Part shown: positions 1 to 23,069 of the stretch, piece by piece | How positions within the stretch are numbered: the stretch's first letter is position 1 | How the letters are laid out: every line of letters begins with the position of its first letter | Virus record (IMG/VR): IMGVR_UViG_3300035682_000076 | Coordinates: 1-41,030 of that record | Reading direction: 5' to 3' (one strand) | From: a virus | DNA length: 41,030 nt | Made by a program: the position numbers and the translations under genes | The notes under the pieces: generated by a model | The model's database searches: none | What the model saw: the letters and a program-made list of their open reading frames with translations, nothing else | Told to the model about the DNA's origin: nothing

Positions 1-1
1 A

Positions 2-1465
2 GGGAATTGGAGAAATGAAAATCCACAAAGAGGTCGTAGTAATAACTCAGTTTTGTTATTAAGAAGTGAAGTTCAAAAAGAACAATTTAATTACTTGGTA
101 CAACTTAATGATGGTGCTAACGATATTGGATTTGTATTTGCGAACAGTTGGTTTGATATGTTCAACCCATGTTTTGAAATCTTAAAAATACCAGTATTAG
201 ATACTGTAGATTTTTCTAAAATAAAATATGATGATGTTGAAGAATACGTTAAAAACAATAAAGAAAAATTTGGTATCCAAGGTTGTAACTTAACTGAAAT
301 TAATGCGGAGAAGGCAACTACAAAAGATAAATTTTTAAAGGCTTGTAAAGACGCATCTATCTTAGGCACATTACAAGCGGGATATACAAGTTTTCCTTAC
401 TTAGGTGAAACAAGTAGAAAGATTTTTGAAAGAGAGGCTTTATTGGGTGTTAGTATTACAGGTTGGATGAACAATCCAAAATTATTCAACGCAGAATTAT
501 TAGAAGAAGGTGCTCAAATGGTTAAAGATACAAATAAAGAAGTTGCTGCGGTTATTGGTATTAACCAAGCTGCAAGAACTACTTGTGTAAAACCATCAGG
601 TAATGCGTCCGTTGTATTAGGAACTGCATCAGGTATTCACCCTGAACACTCTGAAAAGTATTTCCGTATTATGCAATTGAATAAAGAAAGTAACACGGCA
701 AAATGGTTGGTTGATAATATGGGATTCTTATTAGAAGAAAGTGTATGGTCGTCAACTAAATCGGATTACGTTGTTTTTGTTCCTGTTGAAAATCCAAAAG
801 TTGGTTTATTCAAAAAAGATATGAAAGGAATTAAACATCTTGAATTAATTAAGTTAGTTCAACAACATTGGGTAAATGCTGGAACTAATCACGAATTATG
901 TGCTTATAAAGGAGTTAATCATAATACATCTTGTACCGTTATTATTGATGATAAAGATGCAATTGTTGATTACATTTGGGAAGAAAGAGATTTTTTTACC
1001 GCTGTAAGTTTTATGTCGGATTACGGAGATAAAGATTTTAACCAAGCACCGTTTACTTCAGTATTGAATTTGGAAGACATTATTGAACAATATGGTAAGG
1101 GTTCAATTTTAGCGTCAGGTTTAATTATTGATGGATTACATTACTTTAATCAAAACTTATGGTTAGCTTGTGATACTTTATTAGATAGAAGTATAACTTT
1201 AACAGGAACAAGAGAACAAGTTTTATTAAAAGAATATTGGTTATCAAGAGCGAAGAAATTTGCTAAAAATTACTTTAAAGGTGATATGAAGAAAATGGTT
1301 TATTGTTTAAAAGACGTTCATTTATTTTATAAATGGGAAACCATCACTCGTCAATTTAAAGAAGTTAATTTTGGTGAAATTTTAGACAGACCCCAATATA
1401 AAGATATTAGTGACTTTGCAGCCCAAGCATGTTCTGGTGGAAGTTGTGAAATTACAAGTATCTAA
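2..1465 (+). CDS. nrdJ: Adenosylcobalamin-dependent (class II) ribonucleotide reductase, C-terminal part
   Basis: This enzyme reduces ribonucleotides to deoxyribonucleotides for phage DNA synthesis, with coenzyme B12 as radical source. The frame is open from base 2, so the gene is cut by the window edge. A TTG at 53 could be read as a start, but the codons before it read NPQRGRSNNSV, a conserved stretch of the family. Further on, FNPCFEI carries the active-site cysteine of the NPCxE motif, CVKPSGNAS and the following GTASGIHPEHS match the family's glycine-rich loop, and the protein ends in CSGGSC, the C-terminal redox pair that re-reduces the active site. About 487 residues are present of an expected 700 or more. 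The overall pattern fits the monomeric Lactobacillus-type RTPR. The TAA stop overlaps the ATG of the next small gene. Family is confident; oligomeric subtype is inferred. Confidence 0.9.
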   Translation, partial: GNWRNENPQRGRSNNSVLLLRSEVQKEQFNYLVQLNDGANDIGFVFANSWFDMFNPCFEILKIPVLDTVDFSKIKYDDVEEYVKNNKEKFGIQGCNLTEINAEKATTKDKFLKACKDASILGTLQAGYTSFPYLGETSRKIFEREALLGVSITGWMNNPKLFNAELLEEGAQMVKDTNKEVAAVIGINQAARTTCVKPSGNASVVLGTASGIHPEHSEKYFRIMQLNKESNTAKWLVDNMGFLLEESVWSSTKSDYVVFVPVENPKVGLFKKDMKGIKHLELIKLVQQHWVNAGTNHELCAYKGVNHNTSCTVIIDDKDAIVDYIWEERDFFTAVSFMSDYGDKDFNQAPFTSVLNLEDIIEQYGKGSILASGLIIDGLHYFNQNLWLACDTLLDRSITLTGTREQVLLKEYWLSRAKKFAKNYFKGDMKKMVYCLKDVHLFYKWETITRQFKEVNFGEILDRPQYKDISDFAAQACSGGSCEITSI

Positions 1466-1629
1466 TGGTAGAAGGGGTAGATTATTACATAGATGAGAAG
1501 TCAGGGCTTATGGTTCTGACTTCTCTTTTTTTATTAAAGAGAGGGTATTGTTGTGGTAACGGATGTTCAGGATGCCCTTACCTACCCCCATATCAAAAGG
1601 GAAATACAAAAATAAAAGAAGATACATAA
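1465..1629 (+). CDS. Small Cys-rich protein, DUF5522-like
   Basis: This 54-residue ORF starts at the ATG that overlaps the nrdJ stop (TAATG) and ends at TAA 1627-1629. The core RGYCCGNGCSGCPY (residues 26-39), preceded by GVDYYIDEKSGLMVLT, closely matches what I remember of DUF5522, short Cys-rich proteins common in Bacteroidota. The cysteine spacing CC-x3-C-x2-C suggests metal binding or redox chemistry, but the family function is unknown. Overlap with nrdJ suggests translational coupling and perhaps a role linked to reductase or thiol metabolism; that is inference from position only. A terminator-like hairpin lies inside the reading frame (1495-1532). The DUF5522 resemblance makes a chance ORF unlikely. 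Confidence 0.82.
   Translation: MVEGVDYYIDEKSGLMVLTSLFLLKRGYCCGNGCSGCPYLPPYQKGNTKIKEDT
1495..1532 (+). terminator. Terminator-like hairpin inside the small Cys-rich gene
   Basis: GAGAAGTCAG (1495-1504) and CTGACTTCTC (1516-1525) pair perfectly over 10 bp with an 11-base loop, followed by a run of seven T. By sequence this is a textbook intrinsic terminator. It lies within codons 11-23 of the 1465-1629 ORF, so it would stop many transcripts before that ORF is complete. It probably ends the nrdJ transcript or attenuates the miniprotein. Confidence 0.75.
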
Positions 1630-1645
1630 CCATTTTCGTATTGTT

Positions 1646-1655
1646 TATATTTATT
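1646..1655 (+). promoter_or_regulatory. Putative late promoter upstream of the gp25 gene
   Basis: TATATTTATT contains the recurrent ATATTTAT core (1647-1654) seen before most structural units. It ends 4 bases before ATG 1660. If it acts as a -10 element, the transcript would be leaderless or nearly so. Confidence 0.55.
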
Positions 1656-1659
1656 GAAT

Positions 1660-2112
1660 ATGGCAGCAACCTATGGAATAGATTTCCCATTTAGGGATAG
1701 TTTAGAAGGAAAGTTTTTAAAGATGACTGGAACTCCCGAAAGAGAGATTAGAGCGGATTTAATACACCTCCTATTGACAAAGAAGGGTAGTAGATATTAT
1801 TTACCTGATTTTGGTACTAGATTGTATCAATACATCTTTGACCAAAACGACGCTGTTACATTTGGGTTAATTGAAAGTGAAATTCGTGATTCTGTAAAAA
1901 AATATATTCCTAATTTGGATTTAACCTCAATAATAGTGGTTTCAGCAGAAGATGACCCAGACCAAATTGTATCACCACAAGAAAATGAAGATAATAGACT
2001 TTTTAGGGTTTCAGGTTATTCTGAAAAACCACATACTGCTGTAGTTAAAATTGAATATACAGTAAATAACGGGGCATTTACGTCTTCGGATTTTATAATA
2101 CTAAACATTTAA
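1660..2112 (+). CDS. 25: Baseplate wedge subunit, T4 gp25-like
   Basis: The product is a 150-residue wedge protein of the contractile-tail baseplate, where gp25 helps link the wedge to the first sheath ring. The GP25/IraD-type fold is recognised from the N-terminal IDFPFRD start, an early helix (EREIRADLIHLLLTKKGSRYY) and the hallmark LPDFGTRLYQYIFDQND. Its size is near the T4 homologue (about 130 aa). I choose ATG 1660 (MAATYGIDFPF) over the upstream TTG at 1654, which lies inside the promoter-like motif. It is directly followed by the gp6-like gene after one base, an order typical of contractile tails. Residues 100-120 (DDPDQIVSPQENEDN) look like an extra acidic loop. Confidence 0.9.
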   Translation: MAATYGIDFPFRDSLEGKFLKMTGTPEREIRADLIHLLLTKKGSRYYLPDFGTRLYQYIFDQNDAVTFGLIESEIRDSVKKYIPNLDLTSIIVVSAEDDPDQIVSPQENEDNRLFRVSGYSEKPHTAVVKIEYTVNNGAFTSSDFIILNI

Positions 2113-2113
2113 G

Positions 2114-3946
2114 ATGAGTAAAAAAATATCATACGCAACAAGAGATTTTGCGGGTTTAAGGGAAGAGTTAGTAAATCTAACAACACAATATTATCCTGAC
2201 TTGGTTAAGAATACCAACGACGCATCAATATTTTCAGTATTATTAGATTTAAATGCGGCAGTTGCAGATAACTTACACTTCCACATAGATAGAGTTTGGC
2301 AAGAAACAATGTTAGATTTTGCTCAACAAAGACAATCGTTATTTCATATTGCAAAAACTTATGGTATGAAAATACCATGTAAAAGACCTTCAGTTGCGTT
2401 ATGTGACTTTTCAATGAATGTTCCGGTTAGAGGTGATAAGGAAGATGAAAGATATTTGGGAATTATGAGATCAGGAACACAAGTATCAGGAGGTGGACAA
2501 ATTTTTGAAACCGTAGAGGATGTGGATTTTTCAGATCCATTTAATAGTAAGGGTGAACCAAATAGATTAAAAATACCAAATTTTAACGCTAATAATCAAC
2601 TAGTATCATATACAATCACAAAAAGAGAGGCGGTAGTTAATGGGGTTACGAGAATATATAGGAGAGTAATTACATCATTAGACCAAAAGCCATTTTTAAA
2701 ATTATATTTACCCGAACAAGATGTGTTAGGTGTTAGTAGTATCATACATAAAGATGGTACTAACTTTGGTGCAAATCCTACCTCAAATGAATTTAGTGAT
2801 TTAACAAATAAATGGTACGAAGTTAAAAGTTTGGTACAAGATAAAGTTTTCGTACCAGACCCAACCGCAGTATCAGATAAAAATAATTTTAAGGCGGGAA
2901 CCAATAAAACCGTTACAAATAAATTCGTAACTGAATACACACCAGAAGGATATTTTTCAGTTACATTCGGTTCAGGTAATGTTGACCCATTAGATAATTT
3001 AGATAGTCATATGAACGGTACAATGAAAGTTAACCTTTCAACCTATCTTAATAATATGTCATTGGGTGCAATACCAAAATCAAGTACAACCTTATTCATA
3101 AAATACAGAGTTGGTGGAGGTAAAGATTCCAATTTAGGTGTGAATGTTATCACGAGTATTGATAATATGGAATTGGACGTTAACGGACCTATATCTTCTA
3201 TTAACACACAAGTGACTCAATCTATGAGAGTTACAAATATAACACCTGCTGTCGGTGGTGCGGATCAACCAACAATTGAAGAATTAAGAAACATGATTTC
3301 TTATAACTTTGCAGCGCAAAATAGAGCGGTTACTTTAAATGATTATAAATCAATAATTGAGTTGATGCCAGCAACATTCGGAGCACCAGCAAAAGTGAAT
3401 GTCATTGAAGAGGATAATAAGGTAAAAATTAAAATTTTATCTTATGACGATAATGGTAATTTATCTGACACAGTTTCAAATACATTAAAAAGTAATATTA
3501 TAGAATATCTTTCTGAATATAGAATGATAAATGACTATATTGATATTGCAAGTGGGGAAGTTATCGACTTATCATTAGAAATGGATATTGTCATCGATAA
3601 AAACGAAACCCCGACAGATGTCATTAAAACAGCAATTAACGATACCATAGATTTCTTTGATAATTCTAAAAGAAAAATGGGTGACCCATTATTTGTTGGA
3701 GATTTAATTAGACATATTGGTCAAATACCTGGAGTAGTAAATGTAATTGATATCAGGGCGTATAATAAGATTGGTGGGTTATATTCATCATCAGAAACCG
3801 CAATGGCATACAAAGACACATTAACTAAGGAGATATTACAGTCAGATATGACCATTTTTATGAAGTCCAATCAAATATTCCAAATAAGGTTTCCTAATAC
3901 TGATATTAGAATAAGAACCAAAACATTAGGAACGACTACATATTAA
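2114..3946 (+). CDS. 6: Baseplate wedge protein, T4 gp6 / baseplate-J family
   Basis: This 610-residue protein probably forms the main ring of baseplate wedges, as T4 gp6 does. Evidence is the N-terminal YATRDFAGLREELVNLTTQYYP typical of phage gp6 relatives, the central ring-forming segment, and near residues 390-420 the conserved PTIEELRNMISYNFAAQNRA followed by VTLNDYKSIIELMP, the baseplate-J signature. Length is close to T4 gp6 (about 660 aa). It starts one base after the gp25 stop, so the two are co-transcribed and probably translationally coupled. No membrane segments or unusual composition. Confidence 0.88.
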   Translation: MSKKISYATRDFAGLREELVNLTTQYYPDLVKNTNDASIFSVLLDLNAAVADNLHFHIDRVWQETMLDFAQQRQSLFHIAKTYGMKIPCKRPSVALCDFSMNVPVRGDKEDERYLGIMRSGTQVSGGGQIFETVEDVDFSDPFNSKGEPNRLKIPNFNANNQLVSYTITKREAVVNGVTRIYRRVITSLDQKPFLKLYLPEQDVLGVSSIIHKDGTNFGANPTSNEFSDLTNKWYEVKSLVQDKVFVPDPTAVSDKNNFKAGTNKTVTNKFVTEYTPEGYFSVTFGSGNVDPLDNLDSHMNGTMKVNLSTYLNNMSLGAIPKSSTTLFIKYRVGGGKDSNLGVNVITSIDNMELDVNGPISSINTQVTQSMRVTNITPAVGGADQPTIEELRNMISYNFAAQNRAVTLNDYKSIIELMPATFGAPAKVNVIEEDNKVKIKILSYDDNGNLSDTVSNTLKSNIIEYLSEYRMINDYIDIASGEVIDLSLEMDIVIDKNETPTDVIKTAINDTIDFFDNSKRKMGDPLFVGDLIRHIGQIPGVVNVIDIRAYNKIGGLYSSSETAMAYKDTLTKEILQSDMTIFMKSNQIFQIRFPNTDIRIRTKTLGTTTY

Positions 3947-9544: not shown

Positions 9545-11170
9545 ATGAAAATATTAAGAAAAGATACTGATTTAAATTTATTGTTGAATACTGAAACTGA
9601 TTTTCAAACAAATCTCGGTTGGGAAGAAAACTTGAAAGAATTTGAAACCGAAATATTAAGTGATATTATTAATCCAATTGAGAATTATGAAACGGTTAGA
9701 TATATTCATAAACCATATACGTCTAGTGGAGTAACCCAAACCGATATTTGGTTTTATTTTTATTTTCAAAGCGGTGGAACATATGTTCAAGATTATACCC
9801 CACAAGGTATAAGTTCACAAGAAAATGAAAATATGTTAAAACAAGCGACCGAAAGTTTTTTTAGATTGGAGTTTTTTAAAACACCAGGAACCGTTTCGGG
9901 AACCACATTAACATGTGAACCACCAACAAGACAAAATAGAAAATTAATATTTGCTAAAAATTTGTCATTACCATTGGGTGAGAAAATGTTTTATAATCCA
10001 CTGAATGGTTATATACATTTACCAGTTTTTAGAGGTTCAAATTATAGTAATAAAGAAAATATGTATTTCTTTTGGTTTCAAGATGAGAGCGTTTTAACTG
10101 AAACAAATTTAAGTGGTACAACAACAGGTAATACCTTCTTTATGACGGCAAAGTTTTATAACGCAAAAGAGGGTACAATTTTAGATTTTACAAATGATGC
10201 ATTTTCAACTTCTTATACTGCGACAGGAATAACTGAATCAACAGACATGTACTATCAAGTTGATATTAATAAAACAGATTATTCGTATCAAGTTTATTTT
10301 TATAATGGTGTGGTAAAATGTGAAGAAGTTGGTTTAACAAACAAACCAATAATGTTTTTTGAAAGAGGAGGTGGAACGGCACCAAGTAATATATTATACC
10401 ACATATGTTCAAATGTAACTCCAACCCCAACACCAACAGCAACTAATACTCCTACACCAACAGTTACACCAACTAATACTCCTACACCTACCCTCACATC
10501 AACTAATACTCCTACACCAACACCAACACCAACACCAACAACAGATACTCTACCAATTGGAACAACACTTATTTATCTATCAAGTGGAACCACAATTGCT
10601 AATGCTTGTACTGGCACAACTCAATCGTATTATTATCAAACACCAAATCCACCAACAATCCCTGAATTTAGTTTTGAGGGTAAACAAATATATACGGATT
10701 CCACATTATTAACCGCCGCCCCTGGAAATCCTGGATTTACTAAATATTATTATTCATATGATTTTAATTCAATATATTACATTGACGATTCAGAAGGAAG
10801 AAAATACGCATCGACAAGTATATGCCCAACACCAACACCAACCACAGGTACAGTAACTAACGCAGTTGTAAGTTTAGTTGATGGACAAACGGCTTGTGAC
10901 GGTGGAGATTATGGTGAAGCACCATCTAATGATCCATTATTGGACCCTAAGTTCTTCAATCTTACAATTTATGGAAGCAACATTCAAAATGCAAGTGCAA
11001 TAATAAACATACCTACTTTTTTACTTGCGGATTTTACAACAAATCAACAGTTTTATGTTAGAGGAAGAGCATCAGGAGACCCTTATTGGAAAAAATTCAT
11101 TTTAGATGGTGACCCTGAAGGCGGTGTTACAACAGCAACAGCATCAGGTGCAGCAGTAATGTGTCCTTAA
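9545..11170 (+). CDS. Tail structural protein with Thr-Pro linker, 541 aa
   Basis: The protein has a folded N-terminal region of about 290 residues, a 43-residue Thr-Pro-rich linker (residues about 292-334, [14 protein letters not shown] style), then a Gly/Thr-rich C-terminal part with a second short linker near residue 430 (CPTPTPTTGTVT). Such a layout, domain-stalk-domain, suits a protein that projects from the baseplate or whiskers. The linker composition is the same as in the 1957-aa protein at 17196-23069, so the two may form related appendages. No catalytic motif is visible. It lies in the same tight operon as the two preceding genes, one base after the previous stop. Confidence 0.78.
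   Translation: MKILRKDTDLNLLLNTETDFQTNLGWEENLKEFETEILSDIINPIENYETVRYIHKPYTSSGVTQTDIWFYFYFQSGGTYVQDYTPQGISSQENENMLKQATESFFRLEFFKTPGTVSGTTLTCEPPTRQNRKLIFAKNLSLPLGEKMFYNPLNGYIHLPVFRGSNYSNKENMYFFWFQDESVLTETNLSGTTTGNTFFMTAKFYNAKEGTILDFTNDAFSTSYTATGITESTDMYYQVDINKTDYSYQVYFYNGVVKCEEVGLTNKPIMFFERGGGTAPSNILYHICSNVTPTPTPTATNTPTPTVTPTNTPTPTLTSTNTPTPTPTPTPTTDTLPIGTTLIYLSSGTTIANACTGTTQSYYYQTPNPPTIPEFSFEGKQIYTDSTLLTAAPGNPGFTKYYYSYDFNSIYYIDDSEGRKYASTSICPTPTPTTGTVTNAVVSLVDGQTACDGGDYGEAPSNDPLLDPKFFNLTIYGSNIQNASAIINIPTFLLADFTTNQQFYVRGRASGDPYWKKFILDGDPEGGVTTATASGAAVMCP
10418..10545 (+). repeat. Thr-Pro(-Asn) codon repeat array, short version
   Basis: Imperfect 6- and 12-base units (ACACCA, ACTAATACTCCT) encode TP and TNTP repeats. 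This is the short relative of the array at 20931-22010. Confidence 0.8.
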
Positions 11171-12080: not shown

Positions 12081-12094
12081 GTTAATCAAGTACA

Positions 12095-15000
12095 ATGGAA
12101 GTTACAGGAAGTATAAGAATTAATGGATTACCCCCGTTTTCGGGAGACTCAGCAGGCACATGGTTAATTGTAAATAATTCCAGTGGAACGGTAACATCTA
12201 AAATTACAAGGGAAGCCTTGTTAATTGGATGGGGTGGTGGAACTAGTGGAACGTCAGGACAAGCGGGTTCTTCAGGAACAAGTGGAAGTTCTGGTGGTTC
12301 GGGTTCATCAGGAGAAAGTGGTTCATCGGGGTCAAGTGGTTCATCAGGTTCTTCTGGTTCTAATGGAAGTTCAGGAACTAGTGGTTCTTCTGGTACTTCA
12401 GGTTCGGACGGTACTTCAGGAACTAGTGGTAGTTCTGGAACTAGTGGTACTTCAGGTTCTGACGGTACTTCAGGAACTAGTGGTTCTTCTGGTACTTCAG
12501 GAACTAGTGGTAGTTCTGGAACTAGTGGTACTTCAGGTTCGGACGGTACTTCAGGAACTAGTGGTAGTTCTGGAACATCAGGAACAAGTGGTACATCAGG
12601 TTCTAGTGGTAGTTCAGGAACAGCAGGAACATCAGGTTCTAGTGGTTCATCAGGAACGGCGGGAACTTCAGGTACTTCAGTAACTGTCTCAGGTACAAAC
12701 AATACAATTAGCAAGTTTCAAACAGGTGCTGGTGACCCAACATTAGTTGATTCAAAAATTACTGATAATGGTTCACTTGTAGAAATTAATTCAGATGTTA
12801 ATGTTAAAGGTATTTTAACTGCAAGACAATTAAATATTGATTATGTAAGTTCGTCAATACTTTATACATCAGGTTCAAATAAATTTGGTAATACATCGGA
12901 CGACACACATGAATTTACTGGATCAATTTATATTACTGGATCAATTTATATTACAGGTATAACATCAGGATCAACATCAACAGAAGTTGTTGTTTATGAT
13001 ATTTTAACGGGAGAATTACGAACAAAAACAAACGCATCAACATCAGGTACATCAGGTTCTTCTGGTACAAGTGGTTCTTCAGGTAGCAACGGCTCATCAG
13101 GAACTAGTGGTTCTAGTGGTACATCAGGAAGTTCTGGTTCAAATGGTTCTTCAGGAACATCAGGTTCTACAGGAACAGATGGTAGTTCTGGAACTAGTGG
13201 TTCTTCAGGTTCATCAGGTTCTAATGGAACAGACGGTTCTTCAGGTTCTAGTGGTTCTAATGGAACAGACGGAAGTTCTGGTACTTCAGGTTCAAATGGT
13301 ACTGACGGAACTAGTGGTTCTAACGGAACAGACGGAAGTTCTGGTACTTCAGGTTCTAACGGTACAGACGGAAGTTCAGGTTCTTCAGGTAGTAATGGAA
13401 CAGATGGTTCTTCAGGAACTAGTGGTTCTAATGGAACAGATGGTACTTCAGGTTCAAATGGTACCGATGGTTCTTCAGGAACCTCAGGGTCTAATGGAAC
13501 AGATGGTAGTTCAGGTTCTTCAGGTTCATCAGGTTCTAATGGAACAGACGGAAGTTCAGGTTCTTCAGGTAGTAATGGAACAGATGGTTCTTCAGGTTCT
13601 TCAGGTAGTAACGGTTCTTCAGGAACGGCGGGAACTTCGGGTTCAAGTGGTTCATTAACACTTACAGGTTCGTTTGATAATGGTATAATAACACTAAACG
13701 GTTCCGCACCTAACGCAACAGTTGAATCAAATATGTCATTTGACGGTTCCAACTTAAATGTGACTGGTAGTCAAGTTATCAGCAATAATTTAACTGTCAA
13801 CGGAACATTAACAGCACAACAATATGTTGTTAGTTCATCGGTAACTAACATGACCATTCAATTCGCAAGTGGATCAACAGCATTTGGTAACGATACGGTA
13901 GATGTTCATCAGTTTACAGGTTCGGTTTATATAACAGGAGCATTACAAATACCAACCGCGTCGGTAAATCCTACGGGAACTGTTGCGGGTCAATTATATT
14001 ATAATACAACTGATACCAACATATATAGATATAATGGTACCACATGGTTAGCTGCGGCGGGTACATCAGGAACTAGTGGAACATCAGGTTCTTCTGGTTC
14101 AAATGGTTCTTCTGGTACATCAGGTTCTAGTGGTTCAAATGGTTCTTCTGGTACATCAGGTTCTAGTGGTTCAAATGGTTCTTCTGGAACTAGTGGTACA
14201 TCAGGAAGTTCTGGTTCAAATGGTTCTAGTGGTACATCAGGTTCTTCAGGTAGTAACGGTTCTTCAGGTACATCAGGTTCTTCAGGAACATCAGGTTCTA
14301 CAGGAACAGATGGTAGTTCTGGAACTAGTGGTTCTTCAGGTACATCAGGTACATCAGGTTCTTCAGGAACATCAGGTTCTACAGGAACAGATGGTAGTTC
14401 TGGAACTAGTGGTTCTTCAGGTACATCAGGTTCATCAGGTAGCAACGGTTCTTCTGGAACTAGTGGTTCTAGTGGCACATCAGGAACTAGTGGCACTTCA
14501 GGTTCTTCTGGAACTAGTGGTTCTAGTGGTACATCAGGAACTAGTGGCACTTCAGGTTCTTCAGGAACTAGTGGTTCTAGTGGTACATCAGGAACTAGTG
14601 GCACTTCAGGTTCTTCAGGAACTAGTGGTTCTAGTGGTACATCAGGAACTAGTGGTTCTAGTGGTACATCAGGAACAAGTGGCACATCAGGGACTAGTGG
14701 TACAGGATTTTCAACAATTACAAATGCAGGGATTAATAGAATTTTAATTTCTGATGGAACAACAAATGCGGCGTACGCATCATCATCTTTAACATATAAC
14801 GGAACAACATTATTTTTAACAGGTAGTCAAGTTATCAGTAATAACTTAACTGTTAATGGAACACTTACCGCACAACAATATGTTGTTAGCTCGTCAGTGA
14901 CTAATATGACAGTTCAATTTGCAAGTGGATCAACAGCGTTTGGTAATGATACAATAGATGTTCATCAGTTTACAGGTTCAGTTTATATATCAGGTTCAAT

Positions 15001-15547
15001 AGTATCTACAGGTACTTCATTAATATCAGGTTCATCACAAGTATCATTCGGTGGTATAACAGATGTCCCGTCAGGTATTGTATCTAGTTCAATACAAATA
15101 AAAAATTATGGAGATTTTGCAACAACCGGTTCAAATACATTTAAAGGAAATCAAATAATCACCGGTTCAGTTTATGTATCAGGTTCTTCACACGTCATTA
15201 CCGGTTCTTTAACTGTATCTGGAAGTGTTTTCGCAACATCATTTTTTGAATTGTCAGATATTAGATATAAAGATATTATTTCAGTTAATCCAAATGTGGA
15301 TTTATCAACATTAGATGTTATACAATTCACATTAAAAGGTGATAATCAAGTAAGATATGGTTATTCGGCTCAAAGTGTTAAAGAAGCTTGTTCTGACTTA
15401 GTCGTTGGTGATTTACCAATGAGTGTCAACTATAATGACGTCCATACTCTCAAAATACATCAATTGGAAAATAAAATAAAACAATTAGAAACAAAAATAG
15501 AGTCATTGTATGCCAAGATCAACTCCATGGACAGGGATAACGGATAG
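12095..15547 (+). CDS. Tail fibre with Gly-X-Y arrays and C-terminal S74 self-cleaving chaperone domain
   Basis: This 1150-residue protein is a probable trimeric tail fibre. Three arrays with glycine at every third residue (about 47-195, 315-519 and 655-870), filled with Ser, Thr, Asn and Asp, alternate with three copies of a beta module: residues about 223-288 (divergent), 556-612 and 908-964, with NLTVNGTLTAQQYVVSSSV in the last two. The C-terminus is a peptidase S74 intramolecular chaperone: LSDIRYKD places Ser1054 and Lys1059 five residues apart, as in the endosialidase Ser-Lys dyad, followed by VRYGYSAQSVKEA and a coiled coil (about 1115-1145). Cleavage before Ser1054 would release the last 97 residues after trimer folding. 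The gene ends in TAG and overlaps the next gene by 38 bases. Receptor specificity is not evident. Confidence 0.9.
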   Translation: MEVTGSIRINGLPPFSGDSAGTWLIVNNSSGTVTSKITREALLIGWGGGTSGTSGQAGSSGTSGSSGGSGSSGESGSSGSSGSSGSSGSNGSSGTSGSSGTSGSDGTSGTSGSSGTSGTSGSDGTSGTSGSSGTSGTSGSSGTSGTSGSDGTSGTSGSSGTSGTSGTSGSSGSSGTAGTSGSSGSSGTAGTSGTSVTVSGTNNTISKFQTGAGDPTLVDSKITDNGSLVEINSDVNVKGILTARQLNIDYVSSSILYTSGSNKFGNTSDDTHEFTGSIYITGSIYITGITSGSTSTEVVVYDILTGELRTKTNASTSGTSGSSGTSGSSGSNGSSGTSGSSGTSGSSGSNGSSGTSGSTGTDGSSGTSGSSGSSGSNGTDGSSGSSGSNGTDGSSGTSGSNGTDGTSGSNGTDGSSGTSGSNGTDGSSGSSGSNGTDGSSGTSGSNGTDGTSGSNGTDGSSGTSGSNGTDGSSGSSGSSGSNGTDGSSGSSGSNGTDGSSGSSGSNGSSGTAGTSGSSGSLTLTGSFDNGIITLNGSAPNATVESNMSFDGSNLNVTGSQVISNNLTVNGTLTAQQYVVSSSVTNMTIQFASGSTAFGNDTVDVHQFTGSVYITGALQIPTASVNPTGTVAGQLYYNTTDTNIYRYNGTTWLAAAGTSGTSGTSGSSGSNGSSGTSGSSGSNGSSGTSGSSGSNGSSGTSGTSGSSGSNGSSGTSGSSGSNGSSGTSGSSGTSGSTGTDGSSGTSGSSGTSGTSGSSGTSGSTGTDGSSGTSGSSGTSGSSGSNGSSGTSGSSGTSGTSGTSGSSGTSGSSGTSGTSGTSGSSGTSGSSGTSGTSGTSGSSGTSGSSGTSGTSGSSGTSGTSGTSGTSGTGFSTITNAGINRILISDGTTNAAYASSSLTYNGTTLFLTGSQVISNNLTVNGTLTAQQYVVSSSVTNMTVQFASGSTAFGNDTIDVHQFTGSVYISGSIVSTGTSLISGSSQVSFGGITDVPSGIVSSSIQIKNYGDFATTGSNTFKGNQIITGSVYVSGSSHVITGSLTVSGSVFATSFFELSDIRYKDIISVNPNVDLSTLDVIQFTLKGDNQVRYGYSAQSVKEACSDLVVGDLPMSVNYNDVHTLKIHQLENKIKQLETKIESLYAKINSMDRDNG
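12234..12680 (+). repeat. Gly-X-Y coding array 1
   Basis: Nine-base periodic coding repeat giving about 50 Gly-X-Y triplets, with X and Y almost only Ser or Thr plus a few Asp, Asn and Ala. Synonymous codons are mixed (GGT/GGA, TCA/TCT/AGT, ACT/ACA), so exact DNA repeats stay short; GGAACTAGTGG is the commonest word. Confidence 0.85.
13036..13650 (+). repeat. Gly-X-Y coding array 2 (Asn-Gly-Thr-Asp variant)
   Basis: About 68 Gly-X-Y triplets. This array is distinguished by frequent SNGTDGSSG units, giving regularly placed Asp and Asn that could bind metal ions along the fibre. Confidence 0.85.
13762..13930 (+). repeat. Tail-fibre beta module, copy 2
   Basis: About 169 bases closely similar to 14818-14986, encoding GSQVISNNLTVNGTLTAQQY and onwards to HQFTGSVY. 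Differences are mostly synonymous, which indicates an internal duplication held under protein-level selection. Confidence 0.85.
14058..14702 (+). repeat. Gly-X-Y coding array 3
   Basis: About 71 Gly-X-Y triplets. Higher-order units of about 60 bases (GTSGTSGSSGTSGSSGTS) repeat nearly identically from 14490 to 14690, suggesting recent unit expansion. Confidence 0.85.
14818..14986 (+). repeat. Tail-fibre beta module, copy 3
   Basis: Second near-identical copy of the 13762-13930 module. A more diverged first copy is encoded at about 12763-12960 (GILTARQLNIDYVSSSI). Confidence 0.85.
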
Positions 15548-17195: not shown

Positions 17196-20100
17196 ATGAG
17201 TAGTACTTTTAATTTTAATTGTCCAGTACCTTTAGCAGGTGACCCTACAATTCACGAATGTGGGATTATTAAATCTATTTCAGGAACAACAACGGGATTA
17301 ACAAGTAATGTTACAACATACAACTTACGATACAATTTATTAGAAAATTTAAAACCAGTTTACGTAACTATTAAACCAACAGTCAGTAAATTAATAAAAT
17401 TTGTTTTTAATAATTTTACTCTAAATGGTTCAAATATTGACGTATATATTAAACAAGGTGTTGGAATTGATATAAAAACAGTATTACAATTTAATATACC
17501 ATCTAACTCATCAAGTTCAATTAACAAATATGTCAATTTTCTTTTAGATTCAGAATCAAAAAATGATTTGTTTATTACAATAGATATAGTAATTAATGGA
17601 GGTAGCGGAACACGTAGTTTTAATTGTCAAGCATTATGTAATTCATTACCAACAACTTCACATGAATTTTGTGTCGGTTGGTTATCAGATAGTACTTTTT
17701 GTAATGATTGTCCTATAACTGTAACATATTTTGCGGAAGAAACTTTAGATAATATAACGGCAATAACAAATAAAAAATGGTACACCGATGACACATTAAC
17801 CACTGAAGTTACAAATGGTATTAAATTAATATCAAAAGTAAATTTTCAAGGAAGTACATCGAGAATAATTTACAATTATAATACAACGACACATAGACTT
17901 GAATATTATAATAGTTGTGCTGCGTCATCATTTAGTTGTTCTCAAAATTTTATTTCTCTCACACATTTAAAAGAAAATTATACAAATAGTTCACCACATT
18001 TTCCTTCTGCAAATATTAATAAATTTCCTAAATTAAAATGGTCCACTAAAGTTGTTCATTTAAGATTTTCAGAAAAAAATAGAACAGCATACATTACTGT
18101 AGAATATACAGGTAACACCAATTGTCAAGTTGCATTTACCGTTTCAGATGGGATTAACGATAATAAACCTGGTTATATATCATGGACACCATATCAATTT
18201 AATGAACCCGAAGAATTTAGATTAGTTGATGAAAATTTTTTAACTTCAATATGGAATGGACAAGGAAATGGATTTGGAGTTGGTAAAAGATATTCTATTA
18301 AAGTGGCAATGACAAATGGACTTGTGAGTGTTAGAGTATCAGTAGGACAAGATAAAAATTATAATGGTAATGATACTGTCATCACCAAAGTATCTTCAAA
18401 TTGTGACGGGGAAGAAATTTACTCTTATTTAGTTGGAGTAAATCCATATTCTGAATATGATTCAATAAATAATCCTGCGGTTAAAACACATTTATATTCA
18501 AAAACACAAATTAGTAGTTGGACGGCAAATACTAAAGTTTTTAATGACGGTATTTTAAGACAACCAGCATTACCTTATTTTTATGGTTATAATTCTTCAG
18601 TATATAAAGTTGGCACTACAAATTTTAGAAGAGATTTTGGAATAAAAACAGATTACAAGGCGAAGAAAAAATTACTTAAACCAACACAAATTATTGATTT
18701 AGTTGATGGACCAAGATTATTTACTGGGGGCACAATTGATAATTACACAACTTTGGCTTGTATTGAACCATATTTTCTCGGTTCAGGTAAAATCACTAAA
18801 GTTTTAACATCGAATGATTATTATCAACCAACAAGATATTCTTATTTTTTAGGTACAGGTACAACAACGAATCCGGAATATTTAGCTAATAATAATTTTT
18901 TCACTTCATATGATTTTGGAAAAAATAACCATATACCATTAACAGGTTATGAACATTCTAGTACAAAACTTTTTAAATCATACCTTAAATCGGCCAATAA
19001 TTCTTTTTTTTATAGTTTACTTGGTACTGATGGACTAGCAATCGGTGGTTTATGGTCAGGTATAGTTGTAGGTGTCACTTCATTTTTTGAGTTCGCTATT
19101 CAGTGGTCAGCTCTTGAGATTTTAGGTTTAGCTTTCAATCCATATCTGTTGGCTGCCGCGATTATTTTGGTATTATTATCACTTTTGATACCATCAACTA
19201 AAACCTTTATTGAAAATTGTAAACAATTTTTAAAAAGATTTACAACAACACCTTATATCACAACAGGTACTACAATATATAAAAATGTAGACTTAACCGG
19301 TTCACCAGCATATGATAATAATAAAATATTTTCAGATGGCGCATATTTTTATAATGTACCATCATCACAATCAACAGTTTCAACAAAAACATTATCCTAC
19401 AAATATATAAATAATGTAAAAACATATAGTAAAGATATTTTAGATATTAATAATACAACAAAACAATATGCACTTGTTGATGATATTCTTGATTTATTTC
19501 TTTTAACTTATGTTGCGGGTAGACCTGAAAAATACACAACAAACGCAACCAATGTTAGTAATGCGACATCAGTAACGATAACACAAACAAATGAAATAAT
19601 TGGGGCTTTAAATAATCCAATACCAATAACATATGAATTACCTGAAGGATTTGTTAGTTCATATGATAATCTTGAAGATATAAATGCGACAGCATTGAGT
19701 GTTTTATCAGAAATAACGGGAGCAACATATGAAAATCTTTATTCATACGAAGAAAAACCAACCAAAAAAGAAATTCAAACATATTTTACACATGAAATAA
19801 AAATTGAACAAACACCAAATATAATTGTATTAGAGTATAATGATTATGATGATTTGGGTGTTACAACAGGTAAAACTTTATATTATGACGAAAACGGAGA
19901 TTCAAGTGTATTAAATGGATATTATGCAATATCGGGAAGTACACCATATAGGACATTTTATAAAACAGTAAATGGTGTCGTTGTCGATGTATTAACAATG
20001 GATAATAGTGGTAGTACAGGAGTAACGTCAACATATACAGGAGGAACGTACAACATAATAAACGATTATTTAGACCATACAAGTGGTTGGTTTTTAATAT

Positions 20101-23069
20101 CAACATTTTACAATGAATTAGATTTAACATTATATAATAATAGATATGATTTAATCACTAATTGGAACACAAGTAATTTTTATAACAGTTATTATGTCAC
20201 AAGAGGAGTTATAAATAATTTAACAACAAAAGATAGTTTTTATCTTTATGATAATAATTTAACTGGTACAACTAAAACAGAAGCGATTGAAAATTTCTAT
20301 AGACAAATTTATCCATTTGATAGTGAAATTTTTGTATATGATAGAGAAGACACATTAACTATAAAACCTGTTGAAGTTTGTAACACTGGCGGACCTAACG
20401 GTATAAATTATAAAATTTTAGATAGTAATGGTAATTCAATACCATCATTTGTTGGAGTTGAATTCAATTCTAACATTTACACAGGTTCAAGTATTTTATA
20501 TTCTTCAACAACAGTTACAATTTTAAGTAGTGAATATGAAAAATATGTTGATTTACCCAATATTAATTCGGGCGACATAACTAACGTAACAATATCAATT
20601 ACATCACCAAATCCACATTTAAAAACCACATTTACAACAGGTATTTTTAGTGGATGTACCGTGGAAAATACGTGTTCTTCTAACCTTTATTCAGGAACAA
20701 CTTATCAAGTAATTTCTTATGGATATATTCAATATCAAAAATATGATGAGATTAGTAGAACTTCATCAACATTTTATACAGATATACAATATGAAGGTCA
20801 ATATCAGTTAACAGATATAATTGAATATGGTTCAATTTATGGTGCATTAGATGCTGATTTTGAAACTAATTTACACTATCCGGCTGCGGTTATTTCTGTT
20901 TTAAATTTGGGAGTATGTCATACACCGGTAACTCCAACTCCAACCCCAACCAACACTGTAACACCAACTATAACCCCAACTAACACACCTACACCAACAG
21001 TAAACTGTATATTCGGTATTGATATTGTTGTGTTAAGTCCAACACCTACACCTACCAATACACCAACCCCTACTAATACACCAACTAATACGGTTACCCC
21101 AACTGTAACTCCAACTAATACACCAACACCAACTGTAAACTGTTCATTTGGTATTAGCATTGTTGTGTTAGCACCAACTCCAACACCTACGACAACAAAT
21201 ACGGTAACACCAACTAATACCCCAACTAATACTCCGACCAATACGGTAACACCTACTAATACACCTACTAACACACCAACTAATACTCCGACTAATACTG
21301 TAACACCTACTAATACTCCGACCAACACACCTACACCAACCAATACACCAACACCAACTGTAAACTGTTCATTTGGTATTAGCATTGTTGTGTTAGCACC
21401 AACTCCAACACCTACGACAACTAATACAGTAACTCCAACCAACACACCTACTAACACACCTACTAACACACCTACTAACACACCAACAAATACGGTAACA
21501 CCTACTAATACACCTACTAACACACCAACCAACACACCAACTAATACTCCGACCAATACACCAACACCAACAAATACTCCGACCAATACTCCAACTAATA
21601 CTCCAACCAATACTTCGACTAATACACCAACTCCGACCAACACACCTACACCAACCAATACACCAACACCAACTGTAAACTGTTCATTTGGTATTAGCAT
21701 TGTTGTGTTAGGACCAACCCCAACCCCAACTGCGACTAATACTGCAACGCCAACCAACACACCAACTAATACACCAACTAATACCCCAACTAATACTCCG
21801 ACTAATACTGTAACACCTACTAATACTCCGACCAACACACCAACTAATACTCCGACTAATACTGTAACACCTACTAATACACCTACTAACACACCAACTA
21901 ATACTCCGACTAATACTGTAACACCAACTAATACTCCGACCAACACCCCAACTAACACAGCAACACCAACTAAAACACCAACGGGAACGCCTACACCAAC
22001 TCCATCATTACCAGCATTAACGGTATCGGTAAGTTCAAGTTCATTACAATCATGTTATAATGTTAGTGATGCTTCATTTACATTAAGTGCAAGTGGTGGA
22101 AATGGTGGAACTTACGAATATTCTAAAAACAATAGTGACTGGCAATTATCTGCAACATTTAGTAGTTTGGCGGGAACGTCACATACTGGTTATGTTAGAA
22201 ATAGTAATAGAGTCGGGACCGTAGCTCAGGTTGTAGTAAGTAGTTTGGCTAGAACAGCACCAAACGCAACTAGAACGGTAACAAATGTAAGTTGTAACGG
22301 CGGTGCGGATGGGTCTATTGCAGTTTCATCAGGTACGGGTGGTTCTGGTGCATCATACAGTGCTTCGACAGATAACTCAACTTATTTTGCATTACCTAAA
22401 ACATTCTATTCATTAAACGCAGCAAATAGTCCATATACAATTTACGTTAAAGATGGTGCAGGTTGCGTACAATCTTACGCACAAACAATCACACAACCTA
22501 CAGCACAAACATGTGAAATTTCACTTGCGGCTTACGATGATGGAACCAATATCGGTCAAATTACGGCATCATTAGGTGGTGGAACGGGAGTTAAAACAGT
22601 TAAATTATATTTAGACACTTCAGCACCGTATAGTGACTACTCAACCGATACTTTAGTTGCAACTCAGACAGGTGTTTCAAATGGCGGAACACATACATTC
22701 ACTGGTTTAAATTGTAACACTTCAAAATATTGGGTTCAAGTTACAGATGCAAATGGATGTGTTGTTAATTCAACAACATCTATAAATGTTTGTAGTTTTA
22801 TTTTAACAAATAGAGTTAGATTTAATACCACAGCAAATTCAGCAGATGGAGGGGACATGGTAAATCCTATTCATTTAAGAAATGACGATTATGTTAATTA
22901 TGTGGCGAATGGAAATAGATACAGTGCTGGTATGATTTTATATAGAGATGGGTCAGGTCTTGCATGGAATCAAGGTTCGGGATATATATTTGATCTTTTT
23001 GGTAGTAATTGTGCTCTTGCCATAAGTTCAGGTGGTTTAATATCGGGAGCACAAACCAACTGTTTATAG
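17196..23069 (+). CDS. Giant tail adhesin-like protein with Thr-Pro-Asn stalk and SprB-like C-terminal repeats
   Basis: At 1957 residues this is the largest protein in the window. Residues 1-1240 form Cys-poor beta-rich and mixed regions without a recognised family, interrupted by a hydrophobic region at about 612-669 ([20 protein letters not shown] and [17 protein letters not shown]) with two or three potential membrane helices. Residues about 1246-1605 are a Thr-Pro-Asn stalk with four islands of the type [14 protein letters not shown]. Residues about 1609-1869 resemble SprB repeats of Flavobacterium gliding adhesins: [39 protein letters not shown] and [18 protein letters not shown] final domain of about 88 residues ([19 protein letters not shown]) may bind ligand. 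Role: probably a long surface-binding appendage; ends in TAG. Confidence 0.85.
20931..22010 (+). repeat. Thr-Pro-Asn stalk repeat array with four hydrophobic islands
   Basis: Just over 1 kb of imperfect 12-base units (ACTAATACACCA and synonyms) encodes TNTPTNTP, with occasional TVTP or TPTP variants. Islands encoding VNC[SI]FGI[SD]IVVL begin near 20999, 21134, 21360 and 21674. The last three are nearly identical at the DNA level, so large unit duplications have occurred. Confidence 0.9.

Follow-up and report, generated by a model that had tools for sequence, protein, structure and literature searches.

The window analysed here, a 41,030-nucleotide stretch of viral DNA (positions 1 to 41,030 of IMG/VR record IMGVR_UViG_3300035682_000076), carries on its plus strand an ATG-initiated open reading frame of 1150 amino acids (12095..15547) that matches PHROG tail-fibre families. 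The first 48 residues (12095..12238) are conserved in two relatives (L008 and L012) and form a probable attachment domain. Translation scans placed three proline-free Gly-X-Y arrays behind this head: array 1 with 49 triplets (12239..12679), array 2 with 68 triplets, among them many GSN-GTD-GSS units (13046..13657), and array 3 with 72 triplets (14060..14707). These counts agree with the approximately 50, 68 and 71 triplets that the original prediction had reported between 12234 and 14702. The arrays are separated by two non-array modules (module 1, 12680..13045; module 2, 13658..14059), and the third is followed by a strand-rich segment (14708..15253) and an S74-type intramolecular chaperone (15254..15544). 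Module 2 is a partial duplicate of the C-terminal segment (66% identity over 13658-13951), and the area of module 1 (12725-13168) shares 36% identity with part of the same segment, in a match that extends beyond the module end. Upstream of the fibre gene is one for a baseplate-wedge protein (2114-3946), which makes a baseplate-attached fibre plausible; among 50,697 phage records, the nearest relatives of the wedge protein were from Flavobacterium phage immuto, a metagenomic phage and Microcystis phage Mel-JY01 (24-28% identity). An IMG/VR contig with a different sample number (L004) is identical over 12.8 kb and carries a letter-for-letter copy of the fibre gene, and a second record therefore shows the same array lengths.

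The Gly period expected of a collagen triple helix (PF01391) was unbroken over 49, 68 and 72 perfect triplets; when the same protein was shuffled 1000 times the longest run of glycine at every third residue was 9, and none of the window's 24 other tested ORFs had such a run longer than 3. Not one proline was found among the 378 X and Y positions, although the 4.2% proline rate elsewhere in the window predicts 16 (P(0) ~8e-8). Ser or Thr occupied X in 186 of the 189 triplets and Ser, Asn or Asp occupied Y in 180, with threonine strongly polarised (89 in X, 3 in Y) and so departing from the usual collagen tendency of this residue toward Y. The only charged residues were 17 Asp and one Glu, and the arrays thus lack the proline and charge that usually stabilise a collagen triple helix (PF01391). 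A base-composition effect was ruled out as the source of the low proline, as proline averages 4.2% across the window's remaining ORFs, two of which contain Thr/Pro/Asn-type repeats. Recent pure slippage of a single DNA unit was ruled out as the whole story by the mixed Gly codons and the many distinct 9-mers (25 of 49, 32 of 68 and 19 of 72 in arrays 1 to 3), which argue that the protein pattern has been kept while the DNA varies. A beta-solenoid with a fixed coil of more than three residues was also ruled out, since the arrays share no longer period; array 2 had triplet autocorrelation peaks at lag 4 (and 15) and array 3 at even lags, and those of array 1 were weak. Elsewhere in the window, long Thr/Pro/Asn-type tandem repeats with a GC skew of -0.65 occupy 20918-21982 of ORF 17196-23069 (1957 aa), and a shorter block of this type lies at 10418-10540 in ORF 9545-11170.

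The same counts bear on an alternative offered in the original prediction, that the arrays form a polyglycine-II bundle as in the tip protein gp38 of phage S16. In such a bundle each chain folds back on itself. Both are Gly-rich parts of phage fibres. The literature assigns GGX to polyglycine-II bundles and GXX to collagen (PMC13243192). Using the helix limits given in that source, we found that the ten validated gp38 helices are short and 50% glycine, with many GG pairs and no run of glycine at every third residue longer than 4 triplets. The arrays have one glycine per triplet, only 2 extra among 378 positions, and continue for 49-72 triplets uninterrupted by turns. We consider a polyglycine-II bundle very improbable.

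We then considered the C-terminus, to which the original prediction had assigned an S74 domain. A whole-protein Pfam search at E 0.01 did not find S74, and the isolated domain scored 20.5 bits against a cut-off of 22 (PF13884). The corresponding ends of close relatives scored above that cut-off (24.3 bits for both L081 and L219, 39.6 bits for L220), and profile-profile alignment by hhalign against 14 S74-type domains gave 97.1% (E 5e-11). Furthermore, Ser1054 (15254) and Lys1059 have the same five-residue spacing as the catalytic Ser1264 and Lys1269 in the C-terminal S74 domain of the T5 L-shaped fibre pb1 (PMC4690869). The upstream T5 helper residues Arg1250 and Asp1239 have no counterpart at the same spacing, where the fibre has Thr1040 and Ser1029, although this spacing may vary between proteins. 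Taking all the evidence together, we treat the C-terminus as a divergent S74 domain, as originally proposed, and self-cleavage at the predicted site, Ser1054, is likely. A long helix at 15431..15538 (residues 242-277 in the model of 14708-15544) is the probable coiled coil of the chaperone, and the strand-rich segment upstream of the site is the probable tip left after cleavage. As described for T5 in PMC4690869, S74 domains trimerise and direct folding from the C-terminal end, after which they are cleaved away. The original picture of a trimeric helix held by S74-assembled ends therefore needs to be divided: a trimeric helix beside S74 is the best reading of our data, but a permanent hold is doubtful, and because the S74 part of T5 pb1 is removed after folding, the domain is better viewed as a folding clamp than as a permanent end.

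Searching for similar arrays beside S74 domains, as had been proposed, identified 12 IMG/VR loci (L004-L015) that share a near-identical S74 end and carry arrays differing in number, length and content; some of these loci are cut by contig ends and two pairs are near-copies (L008/L009 and L012/L014). Examples of their triplet counts are 49/68/72, 50/82, 50/86, 32/64 and 11/10/42/45, and length differences between relatives were whole triplets. In two relatives (L011 and L015) a module that resembles carbohydrate-binding family 5/12, below the Pfam cut-off, is inserted between arrays; no match to this family was found in the window's fibre. The variation in the arrays and the insertion of modules between them suggest that the arrays behave as exchangeable spacers. 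Proline is rare in the relatives' arrays, not forbidden: it occurs inside an array in 4 of the 12 (L011, L012, L014 and L015), as GAPG or GNPG in three of these.

Structure prediction was of limited help. Monomer models of the C-terminus (pLDDT 56) and of the head with array 1 and module 1 (pLDDT 30) were poor, Foldseek searches of the PDB with these models gave no hits at E <=0.001, and a phmmer search of the PDB with the C-terminus returned weak hits only, the best being the T4-type short tail fibre 1pdi (E 0.019). We regard the monomer models and fold searches as uninformative because we read the protein as an obligate trimer. Array 2 retrieved collagens from the PDB, a result that reflects the Gly period and carries little weight; the Pfam collagen match to the fibre mostly has the same origin, and NCBIfam matches to Scl and Lcl adhesins did not reach the cut-offs of those families.

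To place the threonine polarity in a broader context we surveyed other records with a DNA pattern that is symmetric in X and Y. The pattern matched at least 120 stretches, of which 101 were used (80 in one earlier analysis); an earlier survey with a pattern biased toward GTS (80 of at least 120 stretches analysed) was excluded from the polarity claim. Among the matches listed, 87 of the 101 stretches contained arrays of at least 15 triplets, in 103 frames (89 after removal of near-duplicates). Arrays with at least five threonines in these matches were mainly Thr-in-X in 140 cases, mainly Thr-in-Y in 18 and mixed in 11. Outside the arrays of the same proteins, GTS and GST were equally common (73 and 74 among the matches listed); this baseline masks every run of three or more triplets, as the unmasked counts (GTS 503, GST 102) are contaminated by short arrays. 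In the Pro-free proteins of this set (matches listed), Val, Ile, Leu and Glu also favoured X, and Asn and Asp favoured Y. In known collagens threonine is commoner in Y, as each of the six groups tabulated in PMC3368898 (Table 4) shows. The opposite bias found here argues that the Pro-free arrays form a separate class that follows a residue grammar of its own. The two grammars differ beyond threonine placement: among the matches listed, 116 of the 140 Thr-in-X arrays were Pro-free and their mean proline content was 0.5%, compared with 15% in Thr-in-Y arrays.

These differences would fit arrays that form a three-residue helix of their own, three-stranded with a non-collagen packing suited to Thr in X and Ser, Asn or Asp in Y. 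Two relatives (L006 and L012), however, have classical collagen-like triplets (GEAGAQGNQGNPG, GTKGDTG, GLQGDNG) inside or adjoining their arrays, and the replacements tolerated at Gly sites, described below, fit an ordinary triple helix; we consider such a packing improbable.

A further test came from the glycine positions themselves. Over the 189 triplets of the window's own arrays there are no Gly changes. We examined 130 Thr-in-X regions in 77 frames (among the matches listed) under a lenient rule that required 9 of 12 glycines, excluding six triplets at each end. Non-glycine residues occupied 178 of 9735 Gly sites in these matches, and 144 were Ala, followed by Arg (10), Phe (9), Ser (4) and others (11). 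Given the codons present, single-base mutation would be expected to yield 13-18% Ala and 10-14% Ser. Frames outweigh sites as evidence, because tandem copying makes site counts partly dependent; among the matches listed, 19 frames had a Gly change, of which 17 contained Ala and 4 contained Ser, and without the two largest contributors Ala still accounted for 74 of 96 changes. The Gly sites of related arrays thus tolerate little but the smallest replacement, as in a collagen triple helix (PF01391), and in collagen models Ala is reported to be the mildest replacement, less harmful than Ser, Arg, Val or Asp (PMC9405839).

This bias bears directly on an alternative in which the arrays would be disordered, flexible linkers akin to long Gly-Ser spacers and periodic only through repeat slippage, the outcome that would have overturned the original reading. 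Arrays built of small polar residues only, the low predicted confidence for the head, array 1 and module 1, the rapid length changes among relatives and a recent 54-bp expansion in array 3 (14447-14655) are all in keeping with linkers. A flexible linker, however, should be indifferent to Ala versus Ser, and the near-exclusive use of Ala in related arrays speaks for a packed axis. Nor do linkers account for a threonine polarity that is missing outside the arrays, or for codon use at Y: the Pro-free Thr-in-X arrays among the matches listed draw on both Ser codon families there (TCN 3613, AGY 2348), yet Thr, the one-step intermediate between them, occupies only 170 of 7384 positions. Disordered linkers are accordingly disfavoured, and we judge them unlikely.

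The reading we favour, and consider probable, is a homotrimeric, S74-folded tail fibre in which the Pro-free arrays are collagen-type triple helices that space strand-rich trimeric modules. In this model, the fibre is probably attached to the baseplate, and the S74 domain would gather three chains in register, folding starting from the S74 end. S74 would then be cut off, probably at Ser1054, with the strand-rich segment remaining as the tip. Between the trimeric modules the arrays would wind as three strands, with Gly on the axis and X and Y facing outward, and at 0.86 nm per triplet (PMC7824840) they would form stiff spacers of ~42, 58 and 62 nm. The model builds on the observed array geometry, on homology to S74 with a matching Ser/Lys pair, and on constraints of size and position seen among the relatives' arrays; the trimer, its triple helix, the rod lengths, the cleavage and the spacer function are inferred from these. 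Several points count against a collagen-type reading: the monomer models are poor and gave no fold match, the arrays lack the proline or charged residues that are the usual stabilisers in known viral collagens (PMC3368898), the Pfam collagen match mostly follows from the Gly period, the Ala bias stems from relatives, and tandem duplication makes the site counts partly dependent. Helices with no proline and little charge should be marginal in warmth, for which their length, the trimeric domains on either side, cool water or glycosylation of Thr and Ser could compensate.

The original prediction had set the arrays apart from classical collagen on the ground that the latter needs proline for stability. 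This is too strict. The Burkholderia protein Bucl8 contains a Pro-free (Gly-Ala-Ser)n collagen for which CD at 25 C was reported to show a triple-helix signal (PMC7682875), indicating that proline is not strictly required. As described there, Bucl8 resembles the fibre arrays in its Pro-free, neutral Gly-X-Y repeats of variable number, and differs in being a non-phage outer-membrane protein with 6-38 Thr-free repeats of one triplet. Other systems share the architecture. The prophage side-tail proteins EPclA and EPclB have a collagen stalk between globular trimeric domains but, in the account of PMC3368898, 48% Pro in X, many charged residues and threonine in Y. For T5 pb1, the proximal part has been proposed to have a collagen fold, with a possible collagen stem (PMC4690869). 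Fibres of polinton-like viruses have collagen repeats followed by a C-terminal S74 domain; these viruses infect protists (PMC12220804), and the domain order is that of the fibre. There is thus a precedent for collagen in phage fibres, for its fusion to S74 and for collagen without proline. The novelty lies in a "GTS" class, widespread among viruses, that has almost no proline or charge and places threonine opposite to known collagens. We found no account of Thr-in-X arrays in a limited library of open-licence literature, where the papers listed with matching peptide strings were not on phages by title.

If the arrays fold as triple helices, long collagen is possible without proline, hydroxylation or salt bridges. 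This would bear on how triple helices are stabilised and provide natural Pro-free sequences for testing, and the inverted threonine grammar poses a sharp and cheap question for peptide chemistry. Composition tables suggest that GTS, with Thr in X, is less stable than GST. A bolder proposal, which we regard as possible though doubtful, is that "GTS" arrays make up a three-stranded fibre type in its own right, built on a Gly core. It would parallel collagen while lacking proline and nearly all charge, would reverse the X/Y grammar and would serve in the stalks of environmental phages. Stiff beta-branched residues at X (Thr, Val, Ile, with Glu also in this position) and side-chain hydrogen bonds from Ser, Asn and Asp at Y would replace proline and salt bridges, and stalks could reach hundreds of nanometres. 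In the record of a 735-kb uncultured phage (LR756501.1), Thr-in-X arrays occur in three large frames next to each other and include examples of 425 and 301 triplets.

Cellular genomes also contain such repeats. Among the matches listed, 41 of 116 cellular stretches had a Ser/Thr-rich array of at least 12 triplets; the longest were Thr-in-Y, and Thr-in-X arrays reached 32 triplets. Three cellular contigs (L302, L295 and L275) carry long Thr-in-Y arrays, some of them Pro-free; among these are arrays of 712 triplets in Bacillaceae bacterium JMAK1 and 122 in a Bacteroidia MAG.

Finally, the arrays are a hazard for gene annotation because they leave long Pro-rich frames on the opposite strand. In the window, long open Pro-rich ORFs cover the three arrays on the minus strand (12082-12714, 12994-13752 and 13999-14685), a by-product of the codon pattern. 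The published record of the cultured Microcystis phage Mel-JY01 (PP395634.1) appears to be mis-stranded in its gene calls across such arrays. At 1-3049 the plus strand can be read through for 1016 residues and encodes Thr-in-X arrays, the longest of 149 triplets; across this frame the record annotates two antisense CDSs, at 1-651 and 739-2298. These are 30-33% Pro when translated and are probably wrong-strand gene calls.
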